Source: Pseudooceanicola nanhaiensis DSM 18065 (GTDB lineage: Bacteria; Pseudomonadota; Alphaproteobacteria; Rhodobacterales; Rhodobacteraceae). From it: a stretch of DNA of 64,000 nt. Location of the stretch: assembly GCF_000688295.1 (NCBI RefSeq), contig NZ_JHZF01000013.1, positions 124,001-188,000 on the forward strand, written 5' to 3'. Within the stretch, counting starts at the first letter, position 1. Each line of letters starts with the position of its first letter. The position numbers and the translations under genes were made by a program. The notes beneath the pieces were generated by a model. It made no database searches. It had not been told where the DNA came from and saw nothing but the letters and a program-made list of their open reading frames with translations. Shown here piece after piece: positions 35,494 through 44,556 of the stretch.

Positions 35494-35829
35494 TCACAGC
35501 CGGATCACGTAGTCCTTGCGGGTGGTCTCCACGACCTCCCAGGTGCCGCGGAACCCGGGCGGGATGACGAAGCTGTCGCCGGGCCCGACCGGGACCGCTT
35601 CGCCGCCCTCCTCGGTGATGACCGACCGGCCCTCGAGGATGCGGCAGTATTCCCATTCGTCATAGGCGATCCGCCAGGCGCCGGGGGTGGATTGCCAGAT
35701 GCCGCAATAGAGCCCGTCACGCTCTTCCAGGTTCCAGGTGGTGAAGACCGGATCGCCCGATACCACCTTGGCGGGATCCGGGCGTTCGGTCTCGGGCTCG
35801 ACGGCGGGGGTGACGGGGATCAGCGGCAT
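35494..35829 (-). CDS. small cupin-domain protein (DUF861/EutQ-like)
   Basis: This 111-residue protein is a single cupin barrel. It has the pattern of the DUF861 group: IWQSTPGAWRIAYDEWEYCRILEGRSVITEEGG followed by VGPGDSFVIPPGFRGTWEVVE (split here into two segments). The usual metal histidines of cupins are mostly replaced (Y, E and C remain), as is common in this subgroup. Function is unknown; proteins of this kind occur beside amino-acid and amine catabolic genes. It is convergent with the creatinase gene, 69 bases away. Confidence 0.85.
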   Translation of the reverse strand: MPLIPVTPAVEPETERPDPAKVVSGDPVFTTWNLEERDGLYCGIWQSTPGAWRIAYDEWEYCRILEGRSVITEEGGEAVPVGPGDSFVIPPGFRGTWEVVETTRKDYVIRL

Positions 35830-36067
35830 CGGCGCTCTCCCCGCGGCGAGGTGAGGAGCCCGGTCCGCCGGGTCCTGCCGGTGCCGTTCGAAGAAATCTG
35901 CATCTGGGCCTCCTGTGCCTGGCGCATGGCGGATCGATCCAGAATGGTCGCAGCGCCGGCCTTCGGCAAGCCCATGCTGCCCTCCCGTTTTCCGATGGCG
36001 CCGCGGTGAAATTCGCGTCTATTGTCCCCATATCAAAGCCAAGCCTTTTTGTTGACGGGAGAGTGAG
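35830..36067. promoter_or_regulatory. upstream region of the seven-gene AAA-ATPase block
   Basis: These 238 bases between divergent starts hold no gene. The last 60 bases before the coiled-coil gene are AT-richer (around 36016-36060, with TCTATTGTCC and CATATCAAAG) and probably hold its promoter; the ribosome-binding site is GGGAGAG just before ATG 36068. I cannot fix exact -35/-10 elements. Confidence 0.4.
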
Positions 36068-37144
36068 ATGGCCGATTTCGACGCCCAGGTGCGCGAGAGC
36101 CAGGAGCAGGTGGCCGCGGCGCAGGCCAAGATCAGCGAGCTCACCAGCCGGATCGAGACCGCCCGTCAGAAGATGAAGAGCGGCGACGACGCGATGGTCG
36201 ATATCGAGAACGCCACGCTCGAGGACGTGCATGCCCATGCCGAGGTGATGAACGCCAACATCGCGGAACTCATCATGGGGCTCGACGACGTGACCGCCGG
36301 ATTCTCGCGCGATTTCGAGGAGATGCGCTCGAAGACCGGGTGGGAAAGCTTCGTCGGGATCTTCTCGCCCGGGAAGTCGGAATCGCTCCGCCAGGAGCGG
36401 ATGCGGACGGCCTCGATCGACGACAAGCTGCAGGACCTGATCGCGAAATCGGACACGATCACCCGTCTTCTGCAAAGCCAGCTCGACGTGCTGACCACGC
36501 AGCGCGCGCAGGTCGAGACGAACCTGACCGAGACGCTGGACGAACGCGAGCGGACGGTGGGCGAGCTCGAGGCGCTGCGGGCCGAGATCCGGGCGCTGGA
36601 TCCGAAGATCATCGACCTGGAGAACAGGATCTCGGTCGAGCAGGACGCCGCGGCACGCACCAGGCTCGAAACCGAGCTGTCCGAGATGAACCGTGGCTAC
36701 AACGCGATGGTGCAGGACGAACAGGTCAAGCTGGCCCGGAGCCAGACGCTGGAGCGCTACATCGAGAAGGGCAAGACCTGGGTCGACAGCCTGCAGAACC
36801 AGGCCGCGACGCAGATGGTGCTGATCAACAAGCTCCAGACCGACACCAGGCAGCGGGTTGTGCTCTATGACGCGCTGTCGAAATCGCTGAAGACCGCGCA
36901 GCAGCAGGACGTGGCGCACCGGATCAACGAGATCGGGACCGAGACCGACAAGCAGGCGCAGCAGGCGATGGCGCAGATCGGCGCGGCGACCAACGCGAAG
37001 ATGGCGGACATGCTCGAGGCGCACGAGGGCCACATGGTCTTTGCCCGCGAGGTGCTGGAGGCCAAGGCCAAGGCCGACGAACGCTTTGCCCGGCGCTTCC
37101 AGAAGATCGTCGAGAAGCACGACAAGAACCTCTATGGCGCGTGA
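36068..37144 (+). CDS. coiled-coil protein of unknown function, first gene of AAA-ATPase block
   Basis: I do not recognise the family with confidence. The 358-residue protein has no signal peptide, membrane helix or cysteine-rich site. Heptad-rich stretches at about 1-40 and 120-250 predict coiled coils, and the C-terminal third (about 260-350) is helical and charged. It is rich in Glu, Gln, Ala and Thr. The general appearance, helical with many QxxL and TxxA repeats, recalls TelA/KlaA-type toxic-anion resistance proteins, but I see no diagnostic motif and give this little weight. It starts the co-directional block ending at 43052; the next gene follows after 96 bases. Confidence 0.75.
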   Translation: MADFDAQVRESQEQVAAAQAKISELTSRIETARQKMKSGDDAMVDIENATLEDVHAHAEVMNANIAELIMGLDDVTAGFSRDFEEMRSKTGWESFVGIFSPGKSESLRQERMRTASIDDKLQDLIAKSDTITRLLQSQLDVLTTQRAQVETNLTETLDERERTVGELEALRAEIRALDPKIIDLENRISVEQDAAARTRLETELSEMNRGYNAMVQDEQVKLARSQTLERYIEKGKTWVDSLQNQAATQMVLINKLQTDTRQRVVLYDALSKSLKTAQQQDVAHRINEIGTETDKQAQQAMAQIGAATNAKMADMLEAHEGHMVFAREVLEAKAKADERFARRFQKIVEKHDKNLYGA

Positions 37145-37240
37145 GACGGACGGGACGGCGGGCGGGGCGTCGCTCCGCAGGCGCGCAGCCGAAGGATGTG
37201 CGCCTCGGGAGCGCGCGCCGCGCGTCCGGCCCGCTGCGTG

Positions 37241-38359
37241 ATGGCTGACCTCGAGACCCCCGTCGGGCTGACCGACACCCACGCCTCGCGCCGCTACTTC
37301 CGCAAGTTCGAGGCGATCACCGGGCACCTCGCGCCGGTCGCCGCCGTGATGGAGGTGGAGGGCCGGTTCACCGCGACCGAGGTGAGCCTGCTGGCCCGCC
37401 ACCTGCAGGCGCTGACCTACACCTTCCGCGCGCTGTCGATGAAGTACCTGATGGCGGGCCGCGAGACCGGGCGCTTCTTCGGCTCGCTCTCGATCGACGA
37501 CCACGAGAGCGGCTTCCCCGCGACGCAGGAGCTGCTGGTCATGATGAACGACGCGCAGCAGGCCGAGCGCCACCTGCGCGACATGCCGTCCGTGGCCGAG
37601 CTGAAGAAGCAGATGGTCGCCCAGATCATCGGCGGGCAGGAGATCCCGACACGGCTGCAATTCGCCCTGTCGCAGCGGCTCTATTACCAGGAGCTCGCCC
37701 GGGGCACGCTCTTCTGTCCGCGCAACGACCCCGAGGCGCACTGGCTGGAGACCCTCGGCCCCCGCCGGCGCTACCTGCTGCACTGGTCGGTCTACGACAG
37801 CCAGGTCAACCTGCCGGTCATCTACCTGATGGAGGTCGAGGATTCCGGCCGCACCGCCCTGCCCAAGGACGAGAACCGCTGGCCCGAGGCGCAGGCCCAC
37901 CTGATGGCGCAGTCGCTGGGCGGGCTGAAGCTGCTGACCATCGCCAAGGGCTTCGACGAGGATTTCCCGGACCTGCACCCGAAACGGCTGCGGCGGCTGC
38001 ACATCGGGCCGATGTATTCGCACGCCTACACCCGCCAGTCCGGGCCGATCGCCGAGGTGCTGGCCGAGGCGGCCTCGCAGGAAGGCGACGACTGGGCGCT
38101 GGTCTGGACGATGGAGGACCTGCTCTCGGAACGGGTCCGGACCGAACGCGCGGGCTGGTTCGGCACCGTCGAGCGCGAGGTCTTCGCGCTCGACCCGTTC
38201 TCGGGGCGGGGCGCGGAGACCGGGGCCTCGGCCACCGAGCGGGCCATCGTCCTGCCCGCCCGCCCCTACCAGGTGCTGGCCGAGAAGCGGCCCCCGGGGT
38301 TCGAGACGGTGCGCAAGTTCGTCGTCGGGCGCGACGGGCGCGTGATGAGCGTGCGATGA
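37241..38359 (+). CDS. soluble protein of unknown function, second gene of AAA-ATPase block
   Basis: The 372-residue protein shows no membrane segment and no catalytic motif I can name. It has a helical N-terminal half (MADLETPVGLTD to about 170, including MPSVAELKKQMVAQIIGGQE) and a more beta-rich second half with RRRYLLHWSVYDSQVNLPVIYLMEVEDSG. There is one C in LFCPRNDPEAHW. I chose ATG 37241, where the Arg/Ala-rich open frame upstream stops looking like protein. There is no von Willebrand MIDAS motif, so it is not the usual partner of MoxR-type ATPases. Its position immediately before the ATPase suggests a partner or substrate adaptor. Confidence 0.72.
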   Translation: MADLETPVGLTDTHASRRYFRKFEAITGHLAPVAAVMEVEGRFTATEVSLLARHLQALTYTFRALSMKYLMAGRETGRFFGSLSIDDHESGFPATQELLVMMNDAQQAERHLRDMPSVAELKKQMVAQIIGGQEIPTRLQFALSQRLYYQELARGTLFCPRNDPEAHWLETLGPRRRYLLHWSVYDSQVNLPVIYLMEVEDSGRTALPKDENRWPEAQAHLMAQSLGGLKLLTIAKGFDEDFPDLHPKRLRRLHIGPMYSHAYTRQSGPIAEVLAEAASQEGDDWALVWTMEDLLSERVRTERAGWFGTVEREVFALDPFSGRGAETGASATERAIVLPARPYQVLAEKRPPGFETVRKFVVGRDGRVMSVR

Positions 38360-38421
38360 CCGGGGCCGGGGACATTGGCCGGACAGCGCGGCGCTCCGAA
38401 TTCGCCGCCCCTGGCGGCGAA

Positions 38422-38460
38422 GCCTCCGGCGGGAGTATTTTCGGAAAGATGAAGCAGGGG
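38422..38460 (+). repeat. dispersed intergenic element (copy 1)
   Basis: The sequence GCCTCCGGCGGGAGTATTTT followed by CGGAAAGATGAAGCAGGGG ends at the ribosome-binding region of the ATPase gene (ATG 38469). A related copy lies on the minus strand at 32874-32899. Shared core: GAGTATTT/GGATATTT, CGG, AAGA, GAAGCAGG. Confidence 0.5.
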
Positions 38461-38468
38461 GGCCTGCC

Positions 38469-40403
38469 ATGAGCCTGATGTCGGACCAGATGGAGCTGCG
38501 CGAGGAGGACATCCGCAGGCATTATGCCGCGGCCTTCGGGCTGCTGGAGGGGTTCGATCATGCGCCGCGGATCGCGACACCCTCCGGGGTCGCGGCGCCG
38601 GAACGCTCGCCGGGGATCGGGTCGCGGCCGCGGTTCCGCTCCACCACGCCGGGGCTTGCCACGCGGCGGATGGAGCGGCCCGAGGGCGTGCGGCTGATCG
38701 AACGGATCGAGGGCTCGGACGGTGACGACCCGCTGATCTCGCCCCGGCAGGCGGCCGTCGCGGGGGCGCTGCGGCGGGCCGTGGCCATCGCGCTCGCCCT
38801 GGCCGAGGCCTATGGCGCGCGCACCGGGTTGGCCGAGCTGAAGCGGGCGAACCTCGAAAGCGCGCTGCCGGCGGACCGGCGGGCCGAGTTCTCGGAGCTG
38901 CTCGCCGCCGAGGCGCTGATCACGCTGCATGTCCTTGCCAACGCGACCGCCTTCCTGCTGGCCCCGCAGGCAAGCGAGGTCACGGTCGAGACGGGCGATG
39001 TCGAGGAGGTGCTGACCGACAACGGCCAGCTCGCGCTGCACGGCGCGCTCTGGGAGCTCGACCAGGCCATCGCGCGGCACGGCAGCGACGAGGCGCGGAT
39101 GGTCGCGACCGTGCTGGGCTTTGCCGAGGCGCTGATGGACAAGGTCGCGACCCGGGCCGCCAACGCCCCGCGGCTTGCGCCCTTCACCGCCGCCGCATGG
39201 CGGGTCGAGGCGGACGATTTCGCGATCCGCGGCTTCGAGCCCGCCCGCAGGGGCAAGGGCGCCACCCTCGCCATGACGTTCAAGGAGCCGCATGAGGTCG
39301 TCGGCAACCACATCGCCAAGTACCAGGCGATGAAACTGGCCAAGATGCTCATGGCCTATGATTTCGACCGCCGGCTGAATCCTTTCGCCGAGCTGGGCGG
39401 CTTCATCTTCACCTTCATGGGTGACGGCAAGCCCGGCACCGGCAAGACCACGCTGATCCAGATGATGGCCGGGCTGATCTCGGGCTATTGCGAGACGGCG
39501 GGCTATGCCTTCCGCTACCAGAACCTGTCGACCGACAACATCGACAGCTACCAGGGCAAGTCGGGCCAGAACGCCAAGGCCTTCATCGACGCGATCCTCG
39601 ACCCCGGCGCCATCGGCTTCGGCACGATCGACGACATCGACCAGCTCGCCGGCAAGCGCGGCGACCGGCAGAGCTCGGCCGGGCAGCTCGAGATCACCGC
39701 CGTGCTGATGGAGAGCTTCGCGGGCGCCAACACCGTGGTCCGGGGCAATTGCACCTTCGGCATGTTCTCGAACTACCCCGAGAACGTCGACGACGCGCTG
39801 CGCCAGCGGGCGGGGGCGCGGTTCCTGGTCGACGGGCCGCAGACGCGCGAGGATTACATCGACATCCTGCACCTGCTCATGGGGAAGAACCACGCGATCC
39901 CGCTGGGCGCGCACGACCTCTACGGCGCGCAGGAGATCAAGCGCGCGGTGGCGCGGTCCTTCGAGAGCCATGCGAAGCCGCACGAGGCGGGGCTGCTGAA
40001 CGTCTTCGACCGGGTGCACGAGACGGAGGGAGAGCTGGACACGATCGCCAAGCTCGGCACCTACCTGAAGGCGATCCAGGAGGCCGACGCGCGCTTCACG
40101 GGCCGGGCGATCAAGAACATCACCGACGCGGTGAAGGTGCGGGCGATGGATTTCGAACTGCCCGACGCCTGGATGGAAGAGCCGGAGCTCTTCCTGCGCA
40201 AGGGCTATGACGAGAAGAAGGCGATGATCGAGGCGCTGCGCGTGCCGATCACCACCGAGATGGTGGTCCAGGAGATCAACCGCTACGCGGATTCGGAATT
40301 CCGCTATGCCGACAAGTCCGACGAGGCGGCGGTCGAGGCCATGGTCCGCGACCTCGCCCGGCAGGAGGAGGCGCGGCGGCGCTACCTGGAGGGCAAGGGA
40401 TGA
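38469..40403 (+). CDS. AAA-family ATPase with Walker B Glu-to-Asp change
   Basis: The 644-residue protein has one AAA+ module in its C-terminal half: Walker A GKPGTGKTT at 320-328 (K326), Walker B FGTIDDIDQLAGKRGDR with D388-D389, sensor asparagine N435 in MFSNYPENVDD, and Arg-finger region RQRAGARF (R445/R447/R451). The order and spacing, especially IDxIDxLAGKRG and the ALRQRAGARF segment, resemble classical AAA proteins (FtsH/Cdc48 type) more than MoxR. The catalytic glutamate of Walker B is aspartate, which usually slows hydrolysis. The N-terminal 300 residues are of unknown fold, and the C-terminal 140 are helical. It is central to the seven-gene block and its stop overlaps the next start (ATGA). 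Confidence 0.85.
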   Translation: MSLMSDQMELREEDIRRHYAAAFGLLEGFDHAPRIATPSGVAAPERSPGIGSRPRFRSTTPGLATRRMERPEGVRLIERIEGSDGDDPLISPRQAAVAGALRRAVAIALALAEAYGARTGLAELKRANLESALPADRRAEFSELLAAEALITLHVLANATAFLLAPQASEVTVETGDVEEVLTDNGQLALHGALWELDQAIARHGSDEARMVATVLGFAEALMDKVATRAANAPRLAPFTAAAWRVEADDFAIRGFEPARRGKGATLAMTFKEPHEVVGNHIAKYQAMKLAKMLMAYDFDRRLNPFAELGGFIFTFMGDGKPGTGKTTLIQMMAGLISGYCETAGYAFRYQNLSTDNIDSYQGKSGQNAKAFIDAILDPGAIGFGTIDDIDQLAGKRGDRQSSAGQLEITAVLMESFAGANTVVRGNCTFGMFSNYPENVDDALRQRAGARFLVDGPQTREDYIDILHLLMGKNHAIPLGAHDLYGAQEIKRAVARSFESHAKPHEAGLLNVFDRVHETEGELDTIAKLGTYLKAIQEADARFTGRAIKNITDAVKVRAMDFELPDAWMEEPELFLRKGYDEKKAMIEALRVPITTEMVVQEINRYADSEFRYADKSDEAAVEAMVRDLARQEEARRRYLEGKG

Positions 40404-40720
40404 TCGAACTGCTCCTCCTTGCCCTGCCCGCGGCGATCGGGCTGACCGTGCCGCGGCTGCTGCTGCGCCGGCGTCCCGATGCGCCGCGCTGGCAGGTGCT
40501 GCTCGGCGCGCCGGTGCTGGCGCTTCTGGTGTCCTACGGGCTTCTGGTGCTGGTCTGGCTGGCGCTGCAGCTCTTCGCCGGGACGCTCGGCCGCGCGGGC
40601 GTGGACGTCATGGCGCTGGCCGATCTGGTCGGGGTCACCGCAACGGGCATGATCCTCGCACCGCTCTGCGCCTTCGGCGCGGCGCTGTGGCGGACGCGTG
40701 GCGCGGGGCGAGGATCATGA
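40400..40720 (+). CDS. small three-helix membrane protein of AAA-ATPase block
   Basis: The 106-residue product has hydrophobic segments at about 2-20, 34-62 and 72-96 separated by basic loops (LLLRRRPDAPRW, ALWRTRGAGRGS), so it is an inner-membrane protein. I see no family motif. The ATG overlaps the ATPase stop, which ties its expression to the ATPase; it may anchor the complex to the membrane (inference). Confidence 0.72.
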   Translation: MIELLLLALPAAIGLTVPRLLLRRRPDAPRWQVLLGAPVLALLVSYGLLVLVWLALQLFAGTLGRAGVDVMALADLVGVTATGMILAPLCAFGAALWRTRGAGRGS

Positions 40721-40748
40721 GCGGGGCGCAGATGCGGAGGATAGAGGG

Positions 40749-42122
40749 ATGAAACGCCTCATCGAAAGGGGCCTGATGTTCGGGAACCTGATCCCGGTCA
40801 CCGCCCCCGCCCTGGTGGAGCGCTACAACCGCGCGCTCCATCACCTGACCGGCCGGCGCACGGGGCTGAGCGATTTCCACATCGACATCTCGGGCTTCTC
40901 GCCCGAGATCGGAGAGGAGCTGGACGATCCGCTCTACCTCAACCGGAACGGGGTGAACCGGCAGTTCATCCTGCTGAGCACCGACCAGAAATCCGCCCCG
41001 CTGCTGAACGCGAGCTTCTCGACCTCGCGCGGGATCCTGCGACAGTTCATCGAGGAGAACGAGACCCAGCTCTTCGCGCTGACCGCGCGGGACGCGGTGG
41101 CCGGAGAGCTGGTGAATTCGGTCTTCTCGGTCGCCGATCCCGAGCGGCTGATGGAGATCCGCCGGATCCGGGTCGAGGCCGACACGACCTCGGGCACCGT
41201 CAGGGACGCGGAGGAGCTGGGTCGGCTGACCGACCGTTTCCTCGGCGAGGAGGACGCCTGGTTCGATGACGTGCTGATCGCCGAGATGATCACCATTGCG
41301 AAGCGGACCGGCGACGTGACGCGCAACCCGGTGCGGCTGAAGCAGATGGAGTTCCGGCAGGAGAACTTCTGGACCGCGCATTTCGGCGGCACCTACCTGT
41401 TCCGCGGCGTCGCACACCCCGCCATCCTGACGGCCGGGGATCCCGCGCCGCTGGCGCCGCTGATGGACCATGTCTACGGGCTGGAGGCCCGGAACCACGT
41501 CGCGAAATTTCTCGACCTGAACGGGCTGGTGGAGCCGGTGGTGCGCGCCCCCGGCATCGACGGGGCGGCGATCCTGCGGCAGAAGATGGACTTCATCGTC
41601 GTGGACGCGGCGCAGGAGGCGGGGCTGGACCTGACCGGCGCCACCCGCCGCGACATCCGCAACCTTGCCCGCGACCACGCCGACCGCCTGCCGTCCGAGT
41701 ACCACGCGCTCCGCCGTCTCGTCGCGTGGGCCGAGGAGGGCGGGCCCTGGCCGCGCGTGTCGTCCGAGGATCCGGCCTATTTCTACACGCTCCGGGCCTC
41801 GGACGTGGCGGATGCGGACCTGGTCAACATGCTGCTGGCCGAGCTTTGCCCGAAGGACGTCCGGCAGCTCTTCATCTGCCACAAGGAGCTTTTCTACCGG
41901 CTCTACGCCGGCTGGTCCGAGACCAAGAAGAGCTATGTCGCCGATTTCCTCGCGCGGGAATACGCGGTCGACAAGGCGGGCGCGCGCCGGGCGCTCTTCG
42001 GGTTCGAGGCGCCGATGGAAGAGGTGCCGCCGCCGCCGCCCGTGACGGCGGAGCGCAGGCCGCCGCGCGAGGAGATCATCGCACGGGTCGGTCCATGGGG
42101 CGCGATCCCCCGGGGAAGGTAG
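40749..42122 (+). CDS. conserved protein of unknown function (resembles DUF6638), fifth gene of AAA-ATPase block
   Basis: The 457-residue protein is soluble and has no catalytic motif I can identify. Its N-terminus MKRLIERGLMFGNLIPV and the segment LSDFHIDISGFSPEIGEEL match, from memory, the family called DUF6638. The C-terminal part carries a Pro-rich linker (EEVPPPPPVTAERRPP). It contains CPKDVRQLFICHKELFYRLY with two cysteines, a possible redox or metal pair, but nothing else supports that. ATG 40749 follows GGAGGATAGAGGG. It lies 28 bases after the small membrane protein and three bases before the next gene. Confidence 0.75.
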   Translation: MKRLIERGLMFGNLIPVTAPALVERYNRALHHLTGRRTGLSDFHIDISGFSPEIGEELDDPLYLNRNGVNRQFILLSTDQKSAPLLNASFSTSRGILRQFIEENETQLFALTARDAVAGELVNSVFSVADPERLMEIRRIRVEADTTSGTVRDAEELGRLTDRFLGEEDAWFDDVLIAEMITIAKRTGDVTRNPVRLKQMEFRQENFWTAHFGGTYLFRGVAHPAILTAGDPAPLAPLMDHVYGLEARNHVAKFLDLNGLVEPVVRAPGIDGAAILRQKMDFIVVDAAQEAGLDLTGATRRDIRNLARDHADRLPSEYHALRRLVAWAEEGGPWPRVSSEDPAYFYTLRASDVADADLVNMLLAELCPKDVRQLFICHKELFYRLYAGWSETKKSYVADFLAREYAVDKAGARRALFGFEAPMEEVPPPPPVTAERRPPREEIIARVGPWGAIPRGR

Positions 42123-42125
42123 GTC

Positions 42126-42392
42126 ATGTTCGGCTTCGTTCCGGTCTTCGTGGTGGGCTTCGCCGTGCTGTCGGTGGTCTATGTCGCCGTCTCCTTCTGG
42201 TCGCGGCAGGTCCGCCGCCGCAAGCTGCGCAAGAGATGGGAGGAAGAGGGGCGACCCGGCGATCGCGAGTCCTACGTGGAGGCGGGACTCGACGAATACG
42301 ACGACAGTTTCCGCCGCAAGCTGATCCTGCTGGTCTACCTCGTGCCGCTGGCCGTGATCGTCGCGATCATCTATGCCGTGAACTACATGTAA
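42126..42392 (+). CDS. small two-helix membrane protein of AAA-ATPase block
   Basis: This 88-residue protein has an N-terminal helix (about 3-24, VFVVGFAVLSVVYVAVSF), a basic-then-acidic cytoplasmic-type stretch (RRRKLRKRWEEEGRPGDRE) and a C-terminal helix (about 66-86, LILLVYLVPLAVIVAIIYAV). It is too short for a database-free assignment. It starts three bases after the previous stop and ends 15 bases before the DUF1523 gene. Confidence 0.72.
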   Translation: MFGFVPVFVVGFAVLSVVYVAVSFWSRQVRRRKLRKRWEEEGRPGDRESYVEAGLDEYDDSFRRKLILLVYLVPLAVIVAIIYAVNYM

Positions 42393-42407
42393 GGGAATAT
42401 CGACCAC

Positions 42408-43052
42408 ATGCGTTACGTGAAATGGGCCTTCTGGATCACCTTCTGGCTGCTGGTGGCCGCCTTCTTCCACTACACCCTGCCGCAGCACGACATCGCCCGG
42501 ATCACCGACACCTACGAGCGGCGGATCGATTTCGGCGAGAACTCGATCTTCTGGGCCTCGCCCGACGTGGGCAGCGACGGCACGCTCAACAACCGGGACG
42601 TCTTCTTCATCCAGACGGTGCAGCCCGACGGCGACGTGATGGTCTACCGCAACGAGGACACCGGCTGGGGCTGGCCGCCGTATTTCAAGTTCGACACCTC
42701 GAACCTGCAGGCCGAGGCCGCGGACCTGCGGTCGACCTCGGCCAATCCGACCTGGGTGGCGATCACCCATTACGGCTGGCGCAACGAGTTCATGTCGATC
42801 TTCCCGAACGCGGTCTCCGTGAAGCGGGTCGAGGGGCCGGATGCCACGATCATCCCCTGGGTGAGCATCATCGTCCTTCTGTTCTTCGCCGCGCTGGCCT
42901 GGGGCCTCTGGGTGCGCTGGAAACGATTCCGCGCCGCCCGGATCGATCCGCTGGTCTCGGACATGGGCGACAGCTGGGACGCGGCCGGGCACAACCTGAA
43001 CGAACGGCGCGGCCGGTTCTCGCGCTGGCTGGACAGCTGGAAGCAGAAGTGA
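42408..43052 (+). CDS. DUF1523-family membrane protein, last gene of AAA-ATPase block
   Basis: The 214-residue protein has a membrane helix at about 5-22 and another at about 149-169, with an extracytoplasmic domain between them. The segment FHYTLPQHDIARITDTYERR and FGENSIFW are diagnostic for DUF1523, a family of unknown function common in Rhodobacterales. The C-terminal 40 residues are basic and probably cytoplasmic. A GGGAATA ribosome-binding site precedes ATG 42408. It closes the block; a strong terminator follows 19 bases after the stop. Confidence 0.82.
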   Translation: MRYVKWAFWITFWLLVAAFFHYTLPQHDIARITDTYERRIDFGENSIFWASPDVGSDGTLNNRDVFFIQTVQPDGDVMVYRNEDTGWGWPPYFKFDTSNLQAEAADLRSTSANPTWVAITHYGWRNEFMSIFPNAVSVKRVEGPDATIIPWVSIIVLLFFAALAWGLWVRWKRFRAARIDPLVSDMGDSWDAAGHNLNERRGRFSRWLDSWKQK

Positions 43053-43070
43053 CGGTCTGAGGGCCGCAGG

Positions 43071-43107
43071 AAAGGCGCCGGGCCCGGCCCCGGCGCCTTT
43101 CGTTTCT
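43071..43107 (+). terminator. Rho-independent terminator of the AAA-ATPase block
   Basis: AAAGGCGCCGGG and its partner CCCGGCGCCTTT flank a short loop; the run TTTCGTTTCTG follows on the plus strand. It marks the end of the seven-gene transcript and separates it from the convergent CoA-transferase gene. Confidence 0.85.
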
Positions 43108-43212
43108 GTGCCCGGCCCGCGCGGTGGAAAGCGCGGGAACCGGGCTCCGCGATCCGGCCCCCGCCCGGTGGCTCGCCCTCTTCCCCGGATGCTCGTCGGG
43201 TGAGGTGACGGT

Positions 43213-44556
43213 CTACCAGGCCGGGTCCGACGATCCGAGCCGCTGCGCCGGCCGGTCCCAGGCCATCGGCGCGCCAGCGACCGTGATCGCCGGTTTCAGC
43301 CGCCGGGCCGGGCCCCACGGCGTCGCCTCCTCGGCCGCCTGCCGGTCCTCGGCCGCGTGCGACAGGGAGAGCCGTCCCGGCACCTCCTGCCGGTGCGCGC
43401 AGAGCAGCTCCGCGGTCCGCGCGAGCGACAGGCGGGCGCGGCCCGCCCCCTCTCCGGCGGCGGCGCGATGAAGCAGGCGCAGCGCCGCGGCGGCCATCAG
43501 GTAGCCCGTCGCATGGTCGAGCGCCTGCACCGGCAGGGGCGTCGGTTTCTCGGCCCCGGCCCAGCCCATGCCCGCATCGGCGATGCCGCAGGACATCTGC
43601 ACCAGGCTGTCGAACCCGCGCCGCCCGGCCCAGGGCCCGGTCCAGCCATAGGCGTCCAGGGTGATTTCCACGAGGCCGGGTTTCAGCGCCTGACGGGCCT
43701 GCGTGTCATAGCCGAGGTTTGCCAGCGCGTCGGGACGGTAGCCGTGCACGAGAAGGTCCGCCTCTGCCAGCAGCCGCTCGAAGGTCTCCCGGTCGGTCGC
43801 GTCGGTCAGGTCCAGCATCGCGCAGCGCTTGCCGAGCGTGATCTCGGGCACCACGTTCGCCTCGTCCCAGCCGGGCGGGTCGATCCTGAGCACATCGGCC
43901 CCGAACCCCGCGAGCGTCCGGGTCGCGACCGGCCCCGCCAGCACCCGCGTCAGGTCCAGCACCTTGAGGCCGGCGAGCGGGCGGTCGGGGCGGCCCTGCC
44001 AGGTCAGCGCGGGCGCGGGCACGGGATCGTCCCGGTGGATCAGCGGCTCCGCCGCCACCGCGGCGCCGTTCGGATGGGCACGCCACTCGGCCCGGCTGCG
44101 CATCGCGGCGGCGACACCGCCGGCGGCGACCACCTTGGCCTCGACCTCGTCCTTGTCGCGTTCCATCAGCGCCCGCGCGACCGCCGCCCGGTCCACCCCC
44201 ACGCCCAGGACCGAGAGCGCCGCATCGCGGTGGTGCGGCAGGTTCGTGTGAAGCCGGATCCAGCCGTCCCGCGTCGGGTAATCGCCCGCCACGGCATCCC
44301 AGACCGGCGGCATCTCCCAGCCCAGGGGCTCCAGCGAATGCCCCGCCCAGAGCGAGGCGAGGCGCCGGTCCACCGTCACGGCGGGCGCGACGGAGGCGAG
44401 CCCGGTGCCCGCCATCACCCCGGCAAGCGCCTCCCCGACCGCCGCCATGGAAGCGGTCAGCAGCTCCGTCACGGCATAGCGGGAGGGCAGGTTCCCCTGC
44501 CCGCTCACCTGCGCTTCCGGACCGATCAGCCCGAGCGCCGCGCGGATCTCCTGCAT
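43213..44556 (-). CDS. CaiB/BaiF-type CoA-transferase with N-terminal extension
   Basis: The 447-residue protein contains the class III CoA-transferase core, but the canonical start (PLAGLKVLDLTRVLAGPVAT) is only reached at residue 193. The preceding 190 residues (NLPSRYAVTELLTASMAAVGEALA, DGWIRLHTNLPHHRDAAL) look like the later half of a CaiB domain, so the protein reads as a truncated C-terminal half followed by an N-terminal half. The candidate catalytic aspartate is D347 in PVQALDHATGYLMAA. The ATG overlaps the TGA of the aminotransferase gene (TGATG), so they are coupled. The CoA donor and acceptor are unknown. Confidence 0.85.
   Translation of the reverse strand: MQEIRAALGLIGPEAQVSGQGNLPSRYAVTELLTASMAAVGEALAGVMAGTGLASVAPAVTVDRRLASLWAGHSLEPLGWEMPPVWDAVAGDYPTRDGWIRLHTNLPHHRDAALSVLGVGVDRAAVARALMERDKDEVEAKVVAAGGVAAAMRSRAEWRAHPNGAAVAAEPLIHRDDPVPAPALTWQGRPDRPLAGLKVLDLTRVLAGPVATRTLAGFGADVLRIDPPGWDEANVVPEITLGKRCAMLDLTDATDRETFERLLAEADLLVHGYRPDALANLGYDTQARQALKPGLVEITLDAYGWTGPWAGRRGFDSLVQMSCGIADAGMGWAGAEKPTPLPVQALDHATGYLMAAAALRLLHRAAAGEGAGRARLSLARTAELLCAHRQEVPGRLSLSHAAEDRQAAEEATPWGPARRLKPAITVAGAPMAWDRPAQRLGSSDPAW

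Follow-up and report, generated by a model that had tools for sequence, protein, structure and literature searches.

How does an operon whose genes keep their order across a bacterial family come to hold, at one of its junctions, content that differs from genome to genome? The question is raised by seven co-directional genes at positions 36068–43052 of a stretch of 64,000 nucleotides (nt) from Pseudooceanicola nanhaiensis DSM 18065 (contig NZ_JHZF01000013.1, positions 124,001 to 188,000; hereafter, the window). We call the products P1 to P7. P3 is an AAA ATPase, and P5 and P7 are members of DUF6638 (PF20343) and DUF1523 (PF07509), both described in Pfam as of unknown function. The first-pass annotation took all seven for one machine. 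This was not borne out, as P4, between the ATPase and the DUF6638 gene, occupies an exchange slot. We observed that the content of this slot changes far faster than the core around it, and that in one well-sampled group its edges are often precise to the base. The reading that we prefer, and hold to be probable rather than secure, is that a mostly vertically inherited, membrane-linked AAA chassis hosts swappable cassettes, probably of phage defence. The earlier annotation did not notice the slots and their hypervariability, the defence-like character of some cassettes, or the divergence gradients.

All seven open reading frames (ORFs) were found on the plus strand at the positions first assigned to them, with inter-gene gaps of 96, 109, −4, 28, 3 and 15 nt; the co-directional arrangement, the tight junctions and a strong terminator-like hairpin were thus confirmed. 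The features are listed below. Counts out of 80 refer to named relatives, which are the best 80 of at least 582 ATPase matches and hence biased to close ones.

36068–37144, plus strand: P1, 358-residue coiled-coil protein, conserved core (77 of 80 loci; 77–86% identity in 22 chosen relatives, 35% in Vibrio).
37145–37240, plus strand: P1–P2 junction, 96 nt; a second exchange slot in relatives, judged by gap sizes and small ORFs there, without a cassette in the window.
37241–38359, plus strand: P2, 372-residue soluble protein, conserved core (79 of 80 loci); the open frame extends upstream to 37196.
38469–40403, plus strand: P3, 644-residue AAA ATPase of the classic type, conserved core (Pfam AAA, 7e-11; 80 of 80 loci by construction, as it was the query).
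39420–39449, plus strand: GDGKPGTGKT of P3, residues 318–327, which we take to be Walker A (all residues except 321 invariant in 13 sequences, Vibrio to Rhodobacteraceae).
39612–39641, plus strand: IGFGTIDDID of P3, residues 382–391, presumably the Walker B region (D388, D389 and D391 invariant in 13 sequences).
40400–40748, plus strand: P3–P5 exchange slot, from the start codon overlapping the ATPase stop to the base before the DUF6638 start (variability seen in 76 named loci, 56 one-per-genus loci with the window included, and 15 congeners).
40400–40720, plus strand: P4, 106-residue three-helix membrane protein, the cassette of this genome (ATGA overlap with P3; 0 of 80 loci).
40749–42122, plus strand: P5, DUF6638 protein of 457 residues, conserved core (PF20343, 4e-228; 78 of 80 loci).
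42126–42392, plus strand: P6, 88-residue two-helix membrane protein, membrane tail (76 of 80 loci).
42408–43052, plus strand: P7, DUF1523 protein of 214 residues, membrane tail (PF07509, 2e-72; 76 of 80 loci).
43070–43101, plus strand: terminator-like hairpin at the operon end (13 pairs; −38.5 kcal/mol, z −2.5), the longest of seven such sites in 35700–43250, where shuffled sequences give 3.2.

The distance from the P3 stop to the DUF6638 start was measured in two sets of loci that overlap partly, some genomes being in both. It ranged from 34 to 2382 nt in 76 named loci. In 56 loci taken one per genus it ran from −4 to 1734 nt and reached at least 150 nt in 51. The second set was drawn from 149 genomes of the family; 63 carried the ATPase at an E value of 1e-60 and 56 were used, after exclusion of G310, G316, G351, G356, G405 and G420 (DUF6638 gene on another contig) and of G411 (both genes in pieces). 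Unlike this distance, the P5–P6 and P6–P7 gaps never rose above 15 and 31 nt, respectively, in 76 loci. Among 16 congeneric loci (window included) the slots measured 22–1155 nt, most contents were different and several slots were too short for a gene; by eye, the pairs L185/L186, L188/L189, L179/L184 and window/L180 resembled each other. P4 had no homologue in any of the 80 named loci (tblastn, E value 1e-3), and a 37% homologue at the same place in one of the 15 congeners. The expectation that the seven genes stay together therefore stood for P1, P2, P3, P5, P6 and P7 (76–80 of 80 loci each) and failed for P4. Slot turnover was high even between close relatives: a slot homologue was common to 18 of the 107 pairs with P3 at least 95% identical (blastp, E value 1e-5, half of the shorter ORF), and to 122 of the 1572 pairs at 75–80% identity at the same E value.

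The slot is largely coding on the operon strand. An ORF of at least 60 residues was present in 50 of the 56 one-per-genus loci (window included) and none in the other six. In the 49 slots of at least 200 nt, the longest ORF covered a mean share of 0.82 on the plus strand as against 0.36 on the minus strand (p 3e-12) and 0.40 in shuffled sequence. ORFs started within −4 to +8 of the ATPase stop at 37 of the 56 loci, ended within −30 to +15 of the DUF6638 start at 41, and spanned the slot edge to edge as a single frame at 25; many cassettes overlap the core reading frames at one or both sides. An ORF of at least 45 residues ran from an NTGA start at the ATPase stop in 52 of 92 loci. An NTGA start formed with the base ahead of the ATPase TGA occurs in 76 of 92 loci. 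It is common by chance, since any TGA stop after A, G or T yields NTGA, and we did not use this overlap alone as evidence. Choosing ORFs by GC3 was also discarded, because it is biased against AT-rich genes. Loci free of a cassette (L114, L181, L220, L235 and those of Vibrio) keep an intact core, and the core therefore does not need one. We consider it near certain that the variable slot itself is real.

The edges and the flanks were resolved best in a main group of 17 loci, mostly of Ruegeria, linked by ATPases at least 95% identical. Of 135 alignments from the left, 36 stop precisely at the ATPase stop, the remainder falling mostly within 7, or at the widest 24, bases of it; of 135 from the right, 106 start at −2 to 0 relative to the DUF6638 start. 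Divergence at fourfold sites falls towards the slot from both sides. In P5 it is 0.13 at the 5′ end and 0.39 at the 3′ end (5′ lower in 135 of 136 pairs), dropping from 0.46 mid-gene to 0.115 in the first 60 codons; in P3 it is 0.42 at the 5′ end and 0.19 at the 3′ end (5′ lower in only 5 of 136 pairs), from 0.42–0.47 in the 5′ part to about 0.2 at the 3′ end. The 136 pairs are not independent. The same pattern surrounds the P1–P2 junction, towards which divergence drops in P1 (5′ 0.41, 3′ 0.25; 5′ lower in 11 pairs) and away from which it climbs in P2 (5′ 0.22, 3′ 0.45; 5′ lower in 135 pairs). In groups other than the main one, which were picked by hand, the 5′ end of P5 was lower in 9 of 10 pairs of Marivita, 8 of 10 of Tateyamaria and 8 of 10 of the Sulfitobacter type. 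The 3′ end of P3 was lower on average in 10 of 10 groups tested. As synonymous divergence falls towards the slot, these gradients would be explained best by homologous recombination that exchanges cassettes with the flanking core genes as arms.

Next, we considered what the cassettes encode, using 61 slot ORFs (every non-overlapping ORF of at least 60 residues from 55 one-per-genus loci) and 62 picked by hand, P4 included. The commonest cassettes encode orphan membrane proteins of about 100–125 residues with three helices. One family with three transmembrane (TM) segments occurs in 35 of 148 locus entries from overlapping sets, 19 of them among the 56 one-per-genus loci. A profile match of P4 at an E value of 0.004 among 263 slot ORFs, outside the 0.001 inclusion limit, makes it a possible distant member. 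Two helices, a coiled coil and a GDTLAG motif (by eye) mark a second type; phrog_9267 was matched by 10 of the 62 hand-picked ORFs, at least one of them of this type. Recognisable domains include those of restriction and abortive infection. Among the 61 ORFs, Pfam gave Mrr_cat (3e-33), DUF559 (3e-29) and putAbiC (3e-16) in one each and AbiJ_NTD4 in two (best 4e-10); among the 62, it gave Mrr_cat, PIN_10 and AbiJ_NTD4 in one each and DUF2971 in two. PADLOC candidate families were matched in the hand-picked set (PDC-S31 in two ORFs, PDC-S02 in one), PDC presumably standing for phage defence candidate. HNH matches were under the cut-off, and those to HEPN and CARF-HEPN were weak (E value 1e-4 to 4e-3).

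Some of these genes also occur elsewhere or beside mobile elements. The slot of Sinorhizobium meliloti (L252:11069–12814) holds an endonuclease-domain gene and an ISRm16 transposase. The 340-residue cassette of L087, assumed to be of the AbiJ_NTD4 type, has relatives on seven plasmid records, away from the core; one free-standing relative adjoins a CBASS-like set (SAVED, Mov34, ThiF, nucleotidyltransferase) with a SIR2 gene nearby, and another lies near HipA and SbcCD genes. For a GDTLAG-type slot protein, phages gave only a partial match, to a single phage (two records), and plasmids gave one weak match; the L230 slot protein had no match in plasmids, and no relative of P3 was found in phages. 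Three rhizobial-type loci (L146:11693–12094, L148:5913–6353 and L149:5741–6223) have similar small ORFs, DUF559-like by eye, in the same slot. The slot of L048 (12830–14068) also holds an opposite-strand ORF of 412 residues that is Hint-domain-like by eye.

The P1–P2 junction behaves as a second site. Its gap ranges from −4 to 780 nt in 77 relatives, and of 51 gaps of at least 200 nt, 18 are covered to at least 80% by one ORF on the plus strand and one on the other strand. These ORFs are mostly of 70–130 residues with one to three helices. About five loci have lipoprotein-like ORFs (by eye) between P2 and P3. In the window, the P1–P2 (96 nt) and P2–P3 (109 nt) junctions are both short; ahead of the ATPase start, positions 38422–38454 look like what we take to be a dispersed Rhodobacterales repeat, with only one copy within the window at up to three mismatches.

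The core is far steadier than its junctions. Where present, its genes have the same order and strand in the 80 loci, part of the misses are contig ends, and the synteny of six genes upholds the idea of an operon around an AAA ATPase with membrane proteins. P1, P2, P3 and P5 are four proteins without clear membrane segments, and the membrane proteins P6 and P7 show less conservation than these. One Roseovarius locus (L105, 12139–21932) lacks P5–P7 after the ATPase, and a contig of a metagenome-assembled genome (L057) has the ATPase alone with no partner. DUF6638 was found in 69 of the 149 genomes, one per genus of the family, and in 6 of 289 genomes sampled from the class (five above the cut-off); a sample of 398 genomes across the phylum had P2 in 26. 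P1-P2-P3-P5 without P6 and P7 occurs in six loci of another family of the class and in Sinorhizobium, where a DUF2333 gene follows (DUF2333 is also in L148), and stands alone on two Vibrio megaplasmids. On these megaplasmids (L251:16460–19921 and L253:13461–16922) mfd lies directly 3′ of the DUF6638 gene on the same strand. In a genome of another alphaproteobacterial family (L151:2599–3615), the operon is followed on the same strand, beyond a divergent TetR-type gene, by PspA and YiaAB genes. Pairwise identities of P1, P2, P3 and P5 correlate with each other at r 0.82–0.86 and with those of a neighbouring aldehyde dehydrogenase at r 0.73–0.83 (39 loci); both correlations point to a core inherited mostly vertically. 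Correlations of the core with P6 and P7 are lower (0.55–0.66).

Family assignments were clear for three proteins. P5 is a full DUF6638 member (757.9 bits, model 1–439 of 439, cut-off 27), P7 belongs to DUF1523 (242.8 bits, cut-off 23), and P3 is a classic AAA protein (PF00004, 43.1 bits, cut-off 21.2) with Walker A and B intact, the Walker residues being kept in 13 of 13 compared sequences down to 38% identity. P1, P2, P4 and P6 had no Pfam family above its cut-off. The nearest solved ATPases to P3 (fidgetin-like, katanin, Vps4 and PEX6) appeared only at E values of 0.1–1.4. A weak match to TRIP13 was seen (1.7e-5), and neither HORMA nor CD-NTase partners, as in the TRIP13-HORMA module of CBASS, were found among the seven proteins. 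No VWA match was present in any of the seven at E values up to 1, in agreement with the first-pass view that this is no MoxR-VWA pair. P1 did not match TelA (PF05816) at E values up to 1, and a profile comparison gave 0.2% with shallow profiles; the TelA gene of this genome sits at another locus. P1 had no sequence match to PspA/IM30 (PF04012) either, with 0.6% against one PspA sequence, a comparison at the sequence level only. For structure models of P2 and P5, Foldseek found no match with an E value below 0.001; a weak lead hints at a T-fold-like part in P2. The core may be an envelope, secretion or stress complex, as first supposed, a role about which the TelA, PspA and Foldseek comparisons gave no match.

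We propose the following. P1, P2, P3 and P5, with the membrane tail of P6 and P7, would form the chassis. Whatever occupies the interval from the ATPase stop to the DUF6638 start, P4 in the window, would be the cassette, and P1–P2 would be a second site. The neighbouring core genes would serve as homology arms for cassette exchange, as the synonymous divergence suggests. Many cassettes would be stand-alone phage-defence genes, namely nucleases, abortive-infection proteins and small membrane proteins as possible effectors; we infer this from the recognisable minority. Phage selection would keep the cassettes diverse, and the operon would supply coupled expression. The slot has the constant flanks and variable content of a defence hotspot. 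As a guess, the chassis may be a membrane-associated AAA remodelling complex, which may control the cassette protein or only host its gene; an ordinary membrane or envelope role of the core and a role in immunity appear comparably likely.

Several observations weigh against this proposal. Only a minority of the cassettes match any Pfam family, restriction and Abi domains being confined to it, and no defence link attaches to the commonest, which are orphan membrane proteins. As 19 of the 56 one-per-genus loci share one 3-TM family, some of the variability may come from a resident gene that diverges too fast for blastp to connect its copies. In a PADLOC control of 61 conserved flanking ORFs, from 74 chosen, 36 families were matched at an E value of 0.001 as against 14 by the 61 slot ORFs; we interpret the control matches as widespread folds (ATPases, regulators, MotB). 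As the control exceeds the slots, PADLOC counts prove nothing and were dropped as proof of defence, and the argument is made from the kinds of domains and the evolutionary pattern. The P5 5′ end was lower in only 4 of 6, 2 of 3 and 5 of 10 pairs of three further groups, and outside the main group the gradients in P1, P2 and P5 are often weak or absent. Such gradients could also reflect synonymous constraint near gene ends, which fails to explain the high divergence at the P3 5′ end. In 62 of 73 loci the slot has a lower GC content than the core (mean difference −0.079), which is weak evidence of foreign origin: other operon spacers are lower too (P5–P7 stretch −0.055, P1–P2 −0.032, P2–P3 −0.071), for which reason we dropped low GC as an argument, and the window slot, at a GC of 0.73, is not below P3 at 0.69. 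P2 of G476, from another class, is closer to the family than P2 of other alphaproteobacteria, a close copy that suggests some transfer of the core.

These points bear differently on the alternatives. The core could be a housekeeping envelope or membrane-protein machine, with slot genes encoding membrane proteins that evolve fast and act as its clients or adaptors, and with the nuclease and Abi genes as occasional intruders. This is possible, if on the doubtful side, and is compatible with the hosting part of our proposal. Most cassettes in either slot are small membrane proteins, one 3-TM family recurs, P6 and P7 are themselves membrane proteins of lower conservation than the core, and no PspA match was found in the window's genome and 14 congeners, all of which would suit such a machine. 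It fits less well that unrelated families replace one another at the same bases, and that kinship of P1 to PspA or TelA was not detected. The variable slot could also be artefactual, produced by assembly, by spurious ORFs in GC-rich DNA or by normal drift of intergenic sequence. Several slot ORFs do look low-complexity or spurious (e.g. L206, L219, L244 and L247), a point that counts against our own proposal as well; yet the strand asymmetry (0.82 versus 0.36), the strong domain matches, the uninterrupted P5–P6 and P6–P7 junctions in 76 loci and the base-precise edges make an artefact very improbable.

The core could also belong to a modular immune system that senses infection and in which the cassette is an interchangeable effector, either a membrane protein or a nuclease. 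Effectors vary in this way in CBASS, Thoeris and Lamassu. The occurrence of 2-TM and 3-TM proteins and of nuclease or Abi-type proteins as cassettes, the ORFs that start on the ATPase stop in 52 of 92 loci, the slot ORFs in 50 of 56 loci (some of doubtful quality) and the weak TRIP13-like match of P3 would all suit it. Against it stand the cassette-free loci with an intact core, the largely syntenic and well-conserved core, the relatives of one cassette that occur apart from the core, and the second slot, which is harder to fit. We regard this system as unlikely. The bolder form of it, in which the AAA/DUF6638 chassis detects infection or membrane damage and drives the plugged-in cassette while populations swap effectors via homology arms, is unlikely to the same degree.

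The first-pass description of the block as undescribed agrees with the literature searched, in which no paper named DUF6638 and nothing describing this operon or slot was seen. Four papers name DUF1523, which a passage of one of them, PMC10783040, only lists. A portion of PMC3687685 lists a DNA fragment inside SMc02733; that SMc02733 is part of the Sinorhizobium copy is a guess and was not used. If the hosting proposal is right, single-gene defence candidates could be read off Rhodobacteraceae genomes between the ATPase stop and the DUF6638 start, a core operon would act as a recombination dock whose homology arms keep gene content diverse, and two families of unknown function would gain a testable context.

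MoxR-VWA, PspA/ESCRT-III-Vps4 and TelA systems combine an AAA ATPase with a coiled-coil partner near membranes; the operon described here differs in having no VWA match and a P1 without sequence kinship to PspA or TelA. Capsule and O-antigen type loci have conserved flanks and exchangeable centres. The likeness to them is a variable centre exchanged through conserved flanks; the difference is that the exchange here mostly concerns one gene of a densely packed operon and not a polysaccharide locus of many genes. Payne et al. in 2024 have reportedly described defence hotspots and genes embedded in immune operons. The present locus shares with these that unrelated, partly defence-like genes occupy a single junction within a conserved locus of several genes. 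Here, however, the host operon is not a known immune system, the cassette is often one small gene fitted to the stop and start codons of the core, and the exchange seems to use the core genes themselves as homology arms.

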